Part shown: piece after piece, positions 24,772 through 41,072 of the stretch
Numbering within the stretch: position 1 is the stretch's first letter
Layout: each line of letters starts with the position of its first letter
DNA from: Curtobacterium aurantiacum
GTDB taxonomy: Bacteria > Actinomycetota > Actinomycetes > Actinomycetales > Microbacteriaceae
Length of the DNA stretch: 64,000 bases
Assembly: GCF_018598555.1 (NCBI RefSeq)
Contig: NZ_JAHEWN010000009.1
Span: 62,001 to 126,000, forward strand
Direction of reading: 5' to 3'
Notes under the pieces: generated by a model
What the model saw: only the letters and a program-made list of their open reading frames with translations
Told to the model about the DNA's origin: nothing
The model's database searches: none
Position numbers and translations under genes: made by a program

Positions 24772-25818
24772 CTACTCCGAGCCGGGGTCGGACGCACCCA
24801 TCCCGGTCAGCAGTGCCCGGAACGAGTCGAGCCGCTCGACGCCGGTCGGCCCGAGCTCCCCGTCCTGCACCCGGTCGACGATCTCCCAGTCGTGCGCCTG
24901 CGCCAGCGGGATGCCGTCCCGCGCGGGCAGCACCGGCACGGCGTGCGACGCGAACGCCCGGAACACGTTCGCGGGGTCGACGTGCCCGAGGCCGAACGAC
25001 CGCACACCCGGCGTGTCGATGATCCACCCGCCGTCGCGGACCCGCAGCGCGATCGACGACGACGACGTGTGCCGCCCGCGACCGGTCACGGAGTTCACGA
25101 CCCCGATCGCACGCGTCGACCCGGTCAGGGCGTTCACCAAGGTCGACTTGCCGACGCCGGAGTGCCCGACGGTCACGGTCACCTTGTCGTCCAGGAGCTC
25201 GTGCAGCGCCTCGAACGGGACGTCGTCCGATCGGCTCGTCACGATCCGCAAGGAGAGGCAGGCGAAGTGCGCCAGGAACGCAGCCGGGTCGGCGAGGTCG
25301 GTCTTCGTGATGCAGAGGATCGGGTCGAGGCCGGCGTCGAACGCGGCCACCAGGTACCGGTCGATCAGCCGGGTGCGGGGCTCCGGGTCGGCGGCGGCCA
25401 CCACGATGAGCATCTGGTCGGCGTTCGCCACGATGACGCGCTCGACCTCGTCCGAGTCGTCGGCGCTCCGCCGCAGCAGGGTGGAGCGTTCGGCGACCTT
25501 CACGATGCGCGCGAGCGACCCGGGGTCGCCGGAGACGTCCCCGACGAGCGACACGTGGTCACCCGTGACGACGGACTTCTTGCCGAGCTCGCGGGCCTTC
25601 GTCGCGGTGATGACGTGGTCGTCGATCAGCACGCCGAAGCGCCCGCGGTCGACGTTCGTCACCCACCCGACGGGGGCGTCGTCGTACGTCGGCCGCGTCT
25701 TCGTGCGGGGCCGGTTGCCCTTCGGGTTCGGTCGCACCCGCACGCTCGACTCGTCGTACTGTCCGTACGGCTCGTCCGCGTCGGAGTCGTCACCGTCGGC
25801 GTCGTCCCACCAGCTCAT
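24772..25818 (-). CDS. rsgA: ribosome small-subunit maturation GTPase RsgA
   Basis: Circularly permuted GTPase that checks late 30S assembly. An N-terminal acidic segment (1-55) precedes an OB fold (about 65-130). The G motifs are in permuted order: TKTD (G4), GHSGVGKST (G1), then DTPGVRSFG (G3). The C-terminal region normally has a zinc site with three Cys and one His. Here the corresponding stretch ([25 protein letters not shown]) has no Cys. The start ATG 25818 overlaps the aroA stop (ATGA), so aroA-rsgA form an operon. The loss of zinc ligands may be a lineage feature. Confidence 0.92.
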
Positions 25819-27209
25819 GCGCTCAGACCTGTCGGAACCGACTCGGCCGAGCCGGAGGAAGTGACCAGCGCCGCCCACAGCTCCGGGAACTGCGGCAGCG
25901 TCTTCGCGGTCGACCCGATGTCGTCGACGGCGACGCCGTCGACGACGAGGCCCACGATCGCCCCAGCGGTCGCCATCCGGTGGTCGTCGTACGCGCCCCA
26001 GGCGCTGCCGTGGAGCGGCGCCGGCTCGATCCGCAGGCCGTCGTCGAGTTCGTGCACCGCGCCTCCAGACCGGTTGAGGTCCGCTGCCAGCGCGGCCAGG
26101 CGGTCCGTCTCGTGCCCCCGCAGGTGGCCGATGCCGGTGATCTCGCTCGGTCCGTCGGCCAGCGCGGCCAGCGCGACGAGCGCCGGGGCGAGTTCGCCGC
26201 CGCGGCTCAGGTCGAGTTGGAGACCCGGCAGGGAGGCCCCGCCCCGGATCCCGACGCCGCCGTCGACGACCAGGTCGTCACCGTCACGGGCCACGCTCGC
26301 CCCCCACAGGGGCAAGAGCGTCTCGAGGTCGGCACCGACCTGCGTCGTCTCGGTGGGCCAGGTGCGGATGCGGACCGTGCCGCCGGCGACGAGCGCGGCG
26401 ACCGCGAACGGCGCGGCGTTCGACAGGTCGGGCTCGATCGTGACGTCACGCGCGCCGATCGGGCCGGGGTGCACGACCCACTCGCCGACCGACGGCTCGT
26501 CGACCCGGACGCCGCGGGCACGGAGCGCCGCGACGGTCATCTCGATGTGCGGCATGCTCGGCAGGCGTTCGCCGACGTGGGTGAGGTGCAGGCCCTCGTC
26601 GAAGCGGGGCGCCGACAGCAGCAGGCCGGAGACGAACTGCGAGGACGCCGACGCGTCGATCGTCAGGGCACCACCGCGGACCGAGCCGGTGCCGGTGAAC
26701 GAGAACGGCATCGAGCCGCCGCCGTCGTCCGCGACGTCGACACCGAGGTCCACGAGTCCCTGCACGATGGCGTGCATCGGTCGCTTGCGGGCGTAGGGGT
26801 CGCCGTCGACCGTGACGGGCCCGACGGCCAGGGCGGCGAGTGGCGGCAGGAAGCGCATCACGGTGCCGGCCAGCCCGCAGTCCAGGCGGACGTCGCCGTG
26901 CATCGGGGCGGGCGTGATCCGGAGGTCCGGGCCGTAGGGGTTCGGGGCGGTGCCGGCCGCCGGCTCGAGCTCCTCGATGCCGACGCCGAGCGCACGGAGC
27001 CCCGCGATCATCAGCGCCGAGTCACGGGAGTGCAGCGGGAGCCGGATCGTCGAGGGGCCGTCGGCCAGCGCGGCGAGCACGAGCTCGCGGTTCGTCAGCG
27101 ACTTCGACCCGGGCAGCGCGACGTCACCGCGCAGCGGACCCCCTGCGACCGGGGCGATCCAGGGGCCGGCGGGCTGGGCCCCGCTGTGGGAATGCGTCGT
27201 GTCTGCCAT
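25815..27209 (-). CDS. aroA: 3-phosphoshikimate 1-carboxyvinyltransferase (EPSP synthase)
   Basis: Sixth step of the shikimate pathway: joins phosphoenolpyruvate to shikimate-3-phosphate. The substrate motifs [26 protein letters not shown], and [10 protein letters not shown] are present, and length (464 residues) is normal. The ATG at 27209 lies inside the 18-bp spacer of the divergent SigR-type promoter. Its own -10 TACCCT (complement of 27219-27224) is 9 nt upstream. Transcription of aroA and the stress-induced sigR promoter therefore compete for the same DNA. Confidence 0.96.
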
Positions 27210-27214
27210 CGGTT
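27188..27214 (+). promoter_or_regulatory. predicted SigR-dependent autoregulatory promoter
   Basis: GGGAAT (27188-27193), exactly 18 bp, then GTT (27212-27214), matching the Streptomyces SigR consensus. It would start transcription near 27221, 25 nt before a GTG with a Shine-Dalgarno that is in frame with sigR. Confidence 0.75.
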
Positions 27215-27245
27215 CACCAGGGTACTGAACGCACCGGGAGGATCA

Positions 27246-27344
27246 GTGGCGACAGCAACACTCGCACGAGAGCGGACCGGCACGGCGACCGTGCTGACCG
27301 TGGTGCCGACGACGCTCGGCACGCTCGGCCTAGACTTGGCGGCG
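27246..27344 (+). other. in-frame N-terminal extension of SigR (long isoform)
   Basis: GTG 27246 has GGGAGG (27236-27241) 4 nt upstream. It opens a 33-codon frame without stops into ATG 27345. The peptide is Thr/Ala/Leu-rich with one basic cluster (ARER). It can be translated only from the distal promoter, because the proximal -10 TAGACT (27331-27336) lies inside it. Confidence 0.6.
27331..27336 (+). promoter_or_regulatory. proximal -10 element of sigR
   Basis: TAGACT ends 8 nt before ATG 27345, so transcription should begin at or next to the start codon. No clear -35 is present, as is common for actinobacterial housekeeping promoters. Confidence 0.6.
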
Positions 27345-28142
27345 ATGACGACCGACGAACCGCAGGCAGCTCCGCACCACCTGGTCGAGGAGACCGAGGT
27401 GCAGCTCGACGCCGTGGAAGAGGAGCAGACCGCCCTCGACGACGACGCAGACGAGCCGGTGGACGCGAAGACCGTCTCCGAGGGAGAGCTGCGGTCTCTG
27501 TTCGAGGACCAGGCCCTGCCCTTCATGGACCAGCTGTACGGCGCGGCGATGCGGATGACCCGCAACCCGGCCGACGCCTCGGACCTGGTGCAGGAGACAT
27601 TCGTCAAGGCCTTCGCCGCGTTCCGCCAGTTCAAGCAGGGCACGAACCTGAAGGCCTGGCTGTACCGGATCCTCACGAACACGTTCATCAACACGTACCG
27701 CAAGAACCAGCGGAACCCGTACCAGGGCACCATCGACGAGCTCGAGGACTGGCAGCTCGGCGGCGCGGAGAGCGTCACCCAGTCGATCTCCGCCCGTTCC
27801 GCCGAGGCCGACGCGATCGACCACCTGCCGTCCTCCGCCGTGAAGGACGCCCTGCAGGCCATCCCCGAGGACTTCCGGATGGCCGTCTACTTCGCCGATG
27901 TCGAAGGGTTCTCGTACCAGGAGATCGCCGACATCATGAAGACCCCCGTGGGGACGGTCATGAGCCGCCTCCACCGTGGCCGCCGGCTCCTCCGTGGGCT
28001 CCTGGCGGACCACGCCCGTGAGACCGGCATCGTCCCGGACGCAGCGTCGACGGCGACGATGCGTGGACGGGGACGCGGCGCGGCTCAGACGACGAAGGCA
28101 ACCGCGGCCACGGGTCGCACCGGACGGAAGGACGCACGATGA
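27345..28142 (+). CDS. sigR: ECF sigma factor, SigR/SigH (thiol-oxidative stress) family
   Basis: Directs RNA polymerase to disulfide- and heat-stress genes. Region 2 (about residues 55-120) includes [14 protein letters not shown] and [15 protein letters not shown]. Region 4 includes [29 protein letters not shown]. An acidic N-terminus (1-50) and a basic Gly/Arg/Thr C-terminal tail of about 45 residues flank the core. It overlaps the anti-sigma gene by 4 bp. Two promoters and two starts are visible: ATG 27345 for a 265-residue form, and GTG 27246 for a form with 33 more residues. Confidence 0.94.
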
Positions 28143-28381
28143 GCGGCTGCGACTGCTCGAAGGCGAAGGCCGAGCTCGAGGAGCTCCTGCACGACGAGCT
28201 CCGCCACGAGGACGCCGCGGACATCCGCGAGCACATGGAAGGGTGCGAGGACTGCCAGACCGAGCACCGGGTCGGCGTCGTGCTCATGGAGACCGTCCGT
28301 CGTGCCTGCAAGGAGACCGCTCCCGACCAGCTGCGCAGTGAGATCCTCGCGCGCATCCGGGTGGAGCAGGCGACGCACTGA
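28139..28381 (+). CDS. rsrA: zinc-binding redox-sensing anti-sigma factor RsrA
   Basis: An 80-residue ZAS-type anti-sigma factor that holds SigR until thiol oxidation releases zinc. Cys6, His32, Cys36 and Cys39 have exactly the spacing of the Streptomyces RsrA zinc ligands (C, 26, H, 4, C, 3, C). Further cysteines are Cys4 and Cys57. Translation is coupled to sigR through ATGA. Loss of zinc and disulfide formation on oxidation are known for the family and inferred here. Confidence 0.93.
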
Positions 28382-40433: not shown

Positions 40434-41072
40434 TCAGGGGACGGGCGCCGGCGCGGGCTGTCGGCTGAGTTCCTCCAGGAACGTCCGCAGGCCGTCCGGC
40501 GACGTGTAGTGGTGGCCGACCGCCCCGATCGCTTCCGCACCGGTGGCGTTCTCGGCCCTGTTGTCCACGAACACCATCTGACCCGGCTCGATTCCCAAGC
40601 GCGCACAGGTGTCGCGGTAGATGGATGCCGCGGGCTTCAGGACGTGCTCCTCGGCGCTCACCACGACCGTCTCGAACAGCGAGCCCATCGGGGAGCGGCG
40701 GTACGGGTCGCCGAAGTCGAAGCCCGCGTTCGAGAGCAGGGCGACACGGGTGCCGGCGTCGTGCAGCTCCTCGACGATCTCGAGGGTCTCCGGCTCGACC
40801 TCGAACCACCCGGTGAAGTCGATCGCCCAGAACCGGTGGATCTCGGAGATGCTCCAGCTCCGGCCGGTCCGTTCCGCGATCGCACGCCAGTACGCCACGA
40901 CGGACAGGTCGCCGCGGTCCAGGTCGTGCCGGAGCTCCTGGTACACCGGGAACAGCTCGTCGGCCGGGACGCCGGTGGCGGCCACGAGGGCGTCCCGCGA
41001 GGCGTGCGGTGTCCGGCTGATCACCTCGCCGTAGTCGAAGACCACCACGCGACCAGGCAGGAACAGGCTCAT
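40434..41072 (-). CDS. HAD-superfamily hydrolase (HAD-IA, YihX-like)
   Basis: 212 residues. Motif I is VVFDYGEVIS with the nucleophile Asp; motif II SNAGF, motif III Lys in LKPAASIY, and motif IV FVDNRAEN are all visible. It is likely a small-molecule phosphatase. ATG 41072 is 7 nt after TACGGT (complement of 41080-41085), predicting a leaderless mRNA. Only 24 bp separate it from the divergent dehydratase, and the two -10 elements overlap. Confidence 0.88.
   Translation of the reverse strand: MSLFLPGRVVVFDYGEVISRTPHASRDALVAATGVPADELFPVYQELRHDLDRGDLSVVAYWRAIAERTGRSWSISEIHRFWAIDFTGWFEVEPETLEIVEELHDAGTRVALLSNAGFDFGDPYRRSPMGSLFETVVVSAEEHVLKPAASIYRDTCARLGIEPGQMVFVDNRAENATGAEAIGAVGHHYTSPDGLRTFLEELSRQPAPAPVP

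Follow-up and report, generated by a model that had tools for sequence, protein, structure and literature searches.

How does a single sigma factor gene supply two forms of its product, and what decides which of them is made? The question is raised by the sigR locus of Curtobacterium aurantiacum (Microbacteriaceae), in a stretch of 64,000 nucleotides (nt; contig NZ_JAHEWN010000009.1, positions 62,001 to 126,000) that was analysed as a whole and is called here the window. The protein, scanned with its N-terminal extension, scores 300.6 bits against TIGR02947, the model for actinobacterial SigR and SigH (curated cut-off 251.55), and its closest named relatives are found in Curtobacterium, for instance in C. 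flaccumfaciens LMG 3645 with 97% identity. An initial annotation of the window had described a SigR-type promoter (sigRp2, hereafter p2) of the form GGGAAT-N18-GTT, followed by the Shine-Dalgarno (SD) sequence GGGAGG and the start codon GTG 27246 of a long form, SigR', and a second promoter (p1), with the -10 hexamer TAGACT, just ahead of ATG 27345, the start of a short form. Each of these motifs was confirmed at its place (Table 1). On comparison with related genomes we hold, with good confidence, that sigR has two promoters, each fused to its own start codon, and that promoter choice sets the isoform.

The comparison was made in widening circles. Sixty genomes of the genus gave 59 sigR loci, one genome (G022) having weak matches to paralogues only, and 58 of these loci were readable (all but L059). 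Of 150 family genomes, 144 had a match, 141 of them lying outside the genus, and 87 loci were read, 60 of which were chosen by hand and 27 supplied; L060 and L061 repeat genus loci, and L121, which has no p2, is excluded from family counts with n = 86. Sixty-two loci picked for family spread represent the order and the class (25 from the order outside the family, where 101 genomes matched, and 37 from other orders, where 105 did; the family loci L149-L156 were left out), and counts with n = 41 refer to those having both the p1 unit and p2. A set of 80 named loci was readable in 79 cases (L269 has too little upstream DNA), all 79 conforming to the pattern, and some of its genomes probably occur in the other sets as well.

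The strongest regularity lies at p1. A TANNNT hexamer stands exactly 8 nt before an in-frame ATG or GTG in all 58 genus loci, in 87/87 family loci and in 42/62 loci of the order and class, as the initial annotation had described for the window; the short start codon of the family loci is ATG in 86 cases and GTG in one. Out-of-frame starts with the same gap, taken as a control, were found in 0/58, 2/87 and 0/62 loci. No TANNNT was seen at a gap of 6, 7, 9 or 10 in genus or family loci, and two loci of the order and class have one at gap 7. A gap of 5 was counted 11, 24 and 10 times in the three sets, which goes with GTG codons that immediately precede the ATG and share its hexamer (11, 24 and 9 cases). 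In the genus the hexamer reads TAGACT in 56 loci, TACGAT in L056 and TAGAAT in L058, and its interior, for which no selection was made, is TAGACT in 40/86 and TAGAAT in 19/86 family loci. No conserved -35 was found at the upstream positions examined, and TANNNT promoters of Mycobacterium tuberculosis are likewise described without one in excerpts of the source (PMC3898074).

The hexamer is overprinted on codons of the long form, and their usage can be read against it. The leucine codon that holds its TA is CTA in 58/58 genus loci, as against 0 of the 1158 leucine codons elsewhere in the same short sigR open reading frames (ORFs), and the codon that takes up its last T is TGG in 29, TCG in 18 and TTG in 11 of them, so that the T is kept whichever residue is encoded. 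Both points argue that p1 is selected as DNA. In the family (n = 86), the codon at the TA place is CTA in 51 loci, GTA in 33 and ATA in 2; the final A is imposed by the selection for TANNNT, and the residue varies. The short start also has the features of a leaderless gene, a TANNNT just 5' of the start codon and no SD sequence, with a genus median of -2.3 kcal/mol for its anti-SD pairing.

At p2 the exact GGGAAT-N18-GTT precedes sigR in all 58 genus loci, and the relaxed form GGAAT-N17-19-GTT in 86/87 family loci, L121 having no match. The relaxed scan replaced an earlier one with GGGAAT and an over-strict anchor, by which most p2 sites and some starts of the family had been missed. Taken alone, the motif was rejected as evidence, its frequency in the window being that expected by chance: with one mismatch allowed, GGGAAT-N18-GTT has 4 matches (2 of them exact) against 3.07 expected.

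What gives p2 its meaning is the start codon behind it. The best SD-led start of the p2 leader lies in the sigR frame in 58/58 genus, 84/86 family and 38/41 order and class loci, where chance would give one third, and in all 79 readable named loci. The frame control initially demanded that no stop precede the ATG, which was unfair to the frame in which the -10 reads as a TAG stop codon, and it was repeated without that demand. Loci with a pairing of -8 kcal/mol or below number 58, 0 and 0 for the in-frame and the two other frames in the genus, 75, 5 and 6 in the family, and 24, 1 and 7 in the order and class. The best in-frame long start pairs with a genus median of -10.3 kcal/mol, and pairing is stronger there than at the short ATG in 58/58, 85/86 and 30/41 loci. 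Its codon in the genus is GTG in 28 loci, TTG in 27 and ATG in 3, TTG being otherwise rare in those sigR ORFs (17 of 1158 leucine codons).

The extension that follows keeps its frame across the genus while ranging from 25 to 50 codons. A check for stops in close relatives, proposed with the initial annotation, showed the stretch from the SD-led start to the short ATG to be free of them in all 58 genus loci; the sole stops (L013 and L056) lie upstream of the SD-led start. When genus pairs of equal length were pooled, the ratio of nonsynonymous to synonymous differences (pN/pS) in the extension was 0.76 in the sigR frame; the two other frames gave 1.14 and 1.04, and a stretch of the sigR core 0.05. 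The extension appears to behave as coding sequence under loose constraint. Two promoters and two in-frame starts, the core of the initial annotation, are thereby borne out in genus and family.

The promoter motifs, the two starts, the frame and the spacing are conserved on comparison; where the RNAs begin, which polymerase acts at p1, how ribosomes choose between starts and that SigR' is unstable are inferred. In unstressed cells, the housekeeping polymerase would act at p1, whose -10 lies among the codons of the long form, and the mRNA would begin at the short ATG or one to two bases earlier. Ribosomes would initiate on this leaderless or near-leaderless mRNA without an SD sequence and produce short SigR, to be held by RsrA. 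Under thiol stress, SigR freed from RsrA would transcribe from p2 an mRNA with a leader of about 25 nt and an SD sequence, from which translation would yield SigR' with 33 extra residues. The short ATG would be internal on that mRNA, with a poor SD sequence, and little used. By homology with Streptomyces, SigR' is probably a short-lived form degraded by Clp, giving a strong and transient response. The whole family would then keep a device simpler than that of Streptomyces: as the promoter within the reading frame would make its mRNA begin at the inner start codon, to choose the promoter is to choose the isoform. This would be a compact and testable route to two proteins from one gene, with a stress switch linked to (near-)leaderless translation, and a silent codon change could separate the two forms.

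Several observations weigh against this interpretation, in whole or in part. The compared sequences are related by descent, and counts of loci are not counts of independent events. Constraint on the extension at the protein level is weak, as its pN/pS shows, and Clp degradation of SigR' is carried over entirely from Streptomyces. Among the 62 order and class loci, 20 lack TANNNT-N8-start and four lack a match to p2 (L183, L191, L206 and L210). The short ATG itself has SD-like pairing (-6 kcal/mol or below) in 13/58 genus, 5/86 family and 8/41 order and class loci, so that internal initiation there on the p2 mRNA might still occur. Finally, the distance from the -10 to the start codon exceeds that of typical leaderless genes by some 2 nt, and a conserved pyrimidine-G (YG) directly ahead of the short ATG suggests that the RNA begins before its A.

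These last two points open a variant for which the chances seem evenly balanced: p1 transcription may start one or two nucleotides before the ATG, giving for example a GAUG mRNA with a tiny leader, and the short form would still be tied to p1. Such a variant is compatible with two start-coupled promoters, and the probabilities of the two overlap. YG precedes the short ATG in 58/58 genus, 74/86 family and 29/41 order and class loci over a background of 0.20-0.33, and transcription starts in M. tuberculosis are usually a purine with a flanking pyrimidine, according to excerpts of PMC3898074. The first T of the -10 is 14 nt from the short start, where bacterial TA signals typically stand about 12 base pairs (bp) away counted from that T (excerpts of PMC3160421). 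Against it, six of nine leaderless genes of Streptomyces coelicolor in an excerpt of Table 1 of the latter source have TANNNT 6-8 nt before the start, which brings the A of ATG as +1 within range. The 11 bp from the hexamer centre to that A fall inside the 7-12 bp given for RNA starts in excerpts of PMC3898074. Of the leaderless short mRNA that the initial annotation had proposed, the fused TANNNT-N8-ATG and the poor SD sequence stand, and the spacing and the YG suggest a near-leaderless mRNA as an alternative to a strictly leaderless one.

What the extension does to the protein was approached through its sequence and through the genes that share the p2 motif. The tetrapeptide [LIVM][ED][RKHA]P occurs within the first 20 extension residues in 31/86 family loci (shuffled mean 1.2, maximum 5; other frames 0 and 1) and in 5/41 order and class extensions (shuffled mean 0.4, maximum 2). 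None of the 58 genus extensions has it, and ends resembling MATATLAR or MATALAP are found there instead. The looser L[ED][RA] was counted in 7/58 genus, 39/86 family and 5/41 order and class loci, with shuffled maxima of 6, 13 and 5. From these counts, the idea of a degradation signal draws on the family outside the genus, and the short, fast-evolving extension would be the place to seek that signal.

In the bacterium's own genome of 3.6 Mb, GGGAAT-N17-18-GTT has 16 exact sites, and the reversed control none. One of them belongs to sigR, and downstream proteins were scanned for ten of the 15 others (all except L303, L305, L306, L307 and L310). Flavin enzymes of the CE1758 and CE1759 type scored above curated cut-offs, and DSBA, Clp_N, SocA/Panacea and DUF4193 domains passed those of Pfam. 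Best matches below the cut-off were a superoxide dismutase, NamA/OYE, an F420-reductase and ClgR (100.8 bits, cut-off 170). This gene set fits what we take to be a SigR thiol-stress regulon, and the motif plausibly marks one. The second exact GGGAAT-N18-GTT of the window, at 40570-40596 on the minus strand, is 145 nt upstream of the NamA/OYE-like flavin oxidoreductase gene. At another site (L301, C11:45798-45824), a SocA/Panacea-domain antitoxin-like gene starts 10 nt past the exact SigR-type promoter. Exact SigR-type promoters likewise stand upstream of a Clp ATPase gene, seen in its N-terminal part alone, and of a ClgR-like regulator gene (L299 and L311). These would place proteolysis under SigR control and could close a negative loop on SigR'.

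Both forms could also be made without the extension being a degradation signal, in which case it would alter RsrA binding or the choice of promoters. A motif that is shared by part of the family and absent from the genus would suit such a role. We find it rather unlikely, as the Streptomyces extension makes SigR' a Clp substrate (excerpts of PMC5472188), and the Clp ATPase and ClgR-like genes carry the exact motif in this same genome.

Explanations with a single product fare far worse. That only the short protein matters, the upstream part being a leader that GC-rich DNA and the antisense of the divergent aroA gene happen to leave open, could draw on the weak constraint, on another leader frame that is often stop-free as well (50/58 genus and 55/86 family loci), and on the sigR frame being open back to position 25980 through the aroA antisense. 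For this last reason, the open frame alone was rejected as evidence for the extension. The in-frame best SD-starts of 84/86 family loci, instead of one third, and a frame kept through varying lengths leave that explanation very improbable. That only the long protein is made, SD-led and open from its GTG, with TAGACT no promoter and the short ATG a mere internal methionine, is hardly credible against a spacing fixed at 8 nt, the bias to CTA and a T kept despite varying residues, which have no explanation at the protein level.

Outside the family, the -10/start unit was found in 25/25 loci of the order and in 17/37 of other orders, and GGAA[TC]-N17-19-GTT in 58/62 of both together. In these other families, an in-frame ATG or GTG follows the SigR GTT at exactly 9 nt in 22 cases, none being out of frame, and at 4 to 12 nt in 31/62 loci; the 9-nt cases include L160, L173, L181, L193, L203 and L217. 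Their stress mRNA looks leaderless too, and the opposition of a leadered to a leaderless mRNA is, in consequence, not a widely conserved principle. Translation mode as a determinant of the isoform, also put forward in the initial annotation, would fit the SD-led long form of the genus and of most Microbacteriaceae loci (75/86 at -8 kcal/mol or below), and does not extend to these families. On the whole, that first interpretation is partly supported and refined: the wider rule seems to be that the 5' end of each promoter goes with its own start codon. A broader picture is possible, though we lean slightly away from it. Much of the class would have an isoform choice hard-wired in DNA, with the housekeeping -10 overprinted on the stress isoform, a stress promoter leaderless in many families and no switch at the ribosome or its binding site (RBS), and an N-terminal peptide (resembling M-x-x-[AV]-L-[ED]-R-P in part of the Microbacteriaceae) would be the degradation signal of SigR'.

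Four of the 20 order and class loci that lack TANNNT-N8-start (L187, L188, L214 and L215) read like Streptomyces, presumably so by their EEVGPVTGT-type sequence. They have TATCCT about 56 nt upstream of GTC (GTT in L188), and the leaderless short form seems to be replaced there. At the thresholds used, no sigR match was obtained in 6/150 family, 9/119 order and 2/118 class genomes. The six of the family (G064, G074, G119, G125, G162 and G188) are of 0.9 to 1.6 Mb, one being only 75% complete, and the nine of the order are all those sampled from one family (code f4).

The neighbourhood of sigR is summarized in Table 1. The rsrA-like product scores 56.9 bits against TIGR03988, just below the cut-off of 62.5, and its translation holds HxxxCxxC, which we take to be the zinc anti-sigma motif. 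rsgA is also at the locus, on the strand opposite to sigR. The -35 of sigRp2 sits within the first codons of aroA, whose core promoter (27207-27224, minus strand) in turn overlaps with sigRp2; aroA may be repressed when SigR is induced. TANNNT-N9-ATG was found at aroA in 58/58 genus loci, and from this arrangement aroA may be (near-)leaderless as well.

Table 1. Features of the sigR locus, in positions of the window.
Feature	Position	Strand	Remark
sigRp2, SigR-type autoregulatory promoter GGGAAT-N18-GTT	27188..27214	+	GGGAAT 27188-27193, GTT 27212-27214
Predicted p2 transcription start	27221..27221	+	7 nt past GTT, placed by promoter geometry
Shine-Dalgarno GGGAGG of the long form	27236..27241	+	4 nt, then GTG 27246
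SigR' N-terminal extension, 33 codons, GTG start	27246..27344	+	Stop-free up to ATG 27345
p1 -10 hexamer TAGACT	27331..27336	+	Overprinted on extension codons CTA-GAC-T; 8 nt to ATG
Conserved pyrimidine-G ahead of the short ATG, possible p1 initiator	27343..27344	+	
sigR short form, 265 aa	27345..28142	+	Predicted 5' end of the p1 mRNA at most about 2 nt from the ATG
rsrA-like zinc anti-sigma factor gene	28139..28381	+	Start overlaps sigR stop (ATGA)
aroA, divergent neighbour	25815..27209	-	TIGR01356 344.3 bits, cut-off 287.25
Predicted aroA -10, TACCCT	27219..27224	-	9 nt ahead of aroA ATG; overlaps sigRp2 start region

How far does this locus depart from known systems, which are quoted here from excerpts of the papers cited? 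The nearest is Streptomyces, where SigR and SigR' are made from two promoters, sigRp1 and sigRp2. The sigma factor is orthologous and paired with RsrA, the upstream promoter depends on SigR, and an in-frame upstream start gives the extended form from the stress transcript (PMC5472188). In Streptomyces, however, translation of the short form begins at a GTC that is controlled by IF3 and preceded by a strong RBS (AGGAGGTG) (PMC5472188). In place of such an RBS-led GTC, the window has an ATG with TANNNT 8 nt upstream, at the predicted 5' end of the p1 mRNA, and a p1 -10 overprinted on the extension.

Other actinobacterial sigma factor genes share single traits. Transcribed from several promoters, P1, P2 (leaderless) and P3, sigE of M. 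tuberculosis encodes an extracytoplasmic function (ECF) sigma factor whose isoforms differ at the N-terminus, and one of its mRNAs is leaderless (PMC10027907, PMC3898074, PMC4921905). Unlike in the window, stress induces the leaderless transcript of sigE, whose 5' end is the main start codon; shorter forms come from an internal promoter under SigH, and sigE is not an orthologue of sigR or sigH. For the orthologue in that species, sigH, S1 mapping showed two promoters, of which the upstream is SigH-type, and excerpts of PMC4921905 describe neither a leaderless short form nor an isoform pair. The sigH-rshA operon of Corynebacterium glutamicum is orthologous too, with SigA-type promoters (-10 TANANT, weak -35). 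Its RNA starts were mapped 22-131 nt upstream of the ATG, which makes the short form leadered, in contrast to the window, and the same excerpts report no SigH-dependent sigH promoter (PMC3489674).

The leaderless genes of Actinobacteria led by a TA signal likewise have TANNNT just upstream of the start and no SD sequence (PMC3160421), but the unit of the window lies inside a longer frame of the same protein, and its first T is at 14 instead of about 12 nt. In the open-licence literature searched, no report of a leaderless short form of SigR was recognised. Two promoters for SigR and SigR' were already known from Streptomyces, and what appears to differ here is the (near-)leaderless short start, with its -10 overprinted on the stress isoform.

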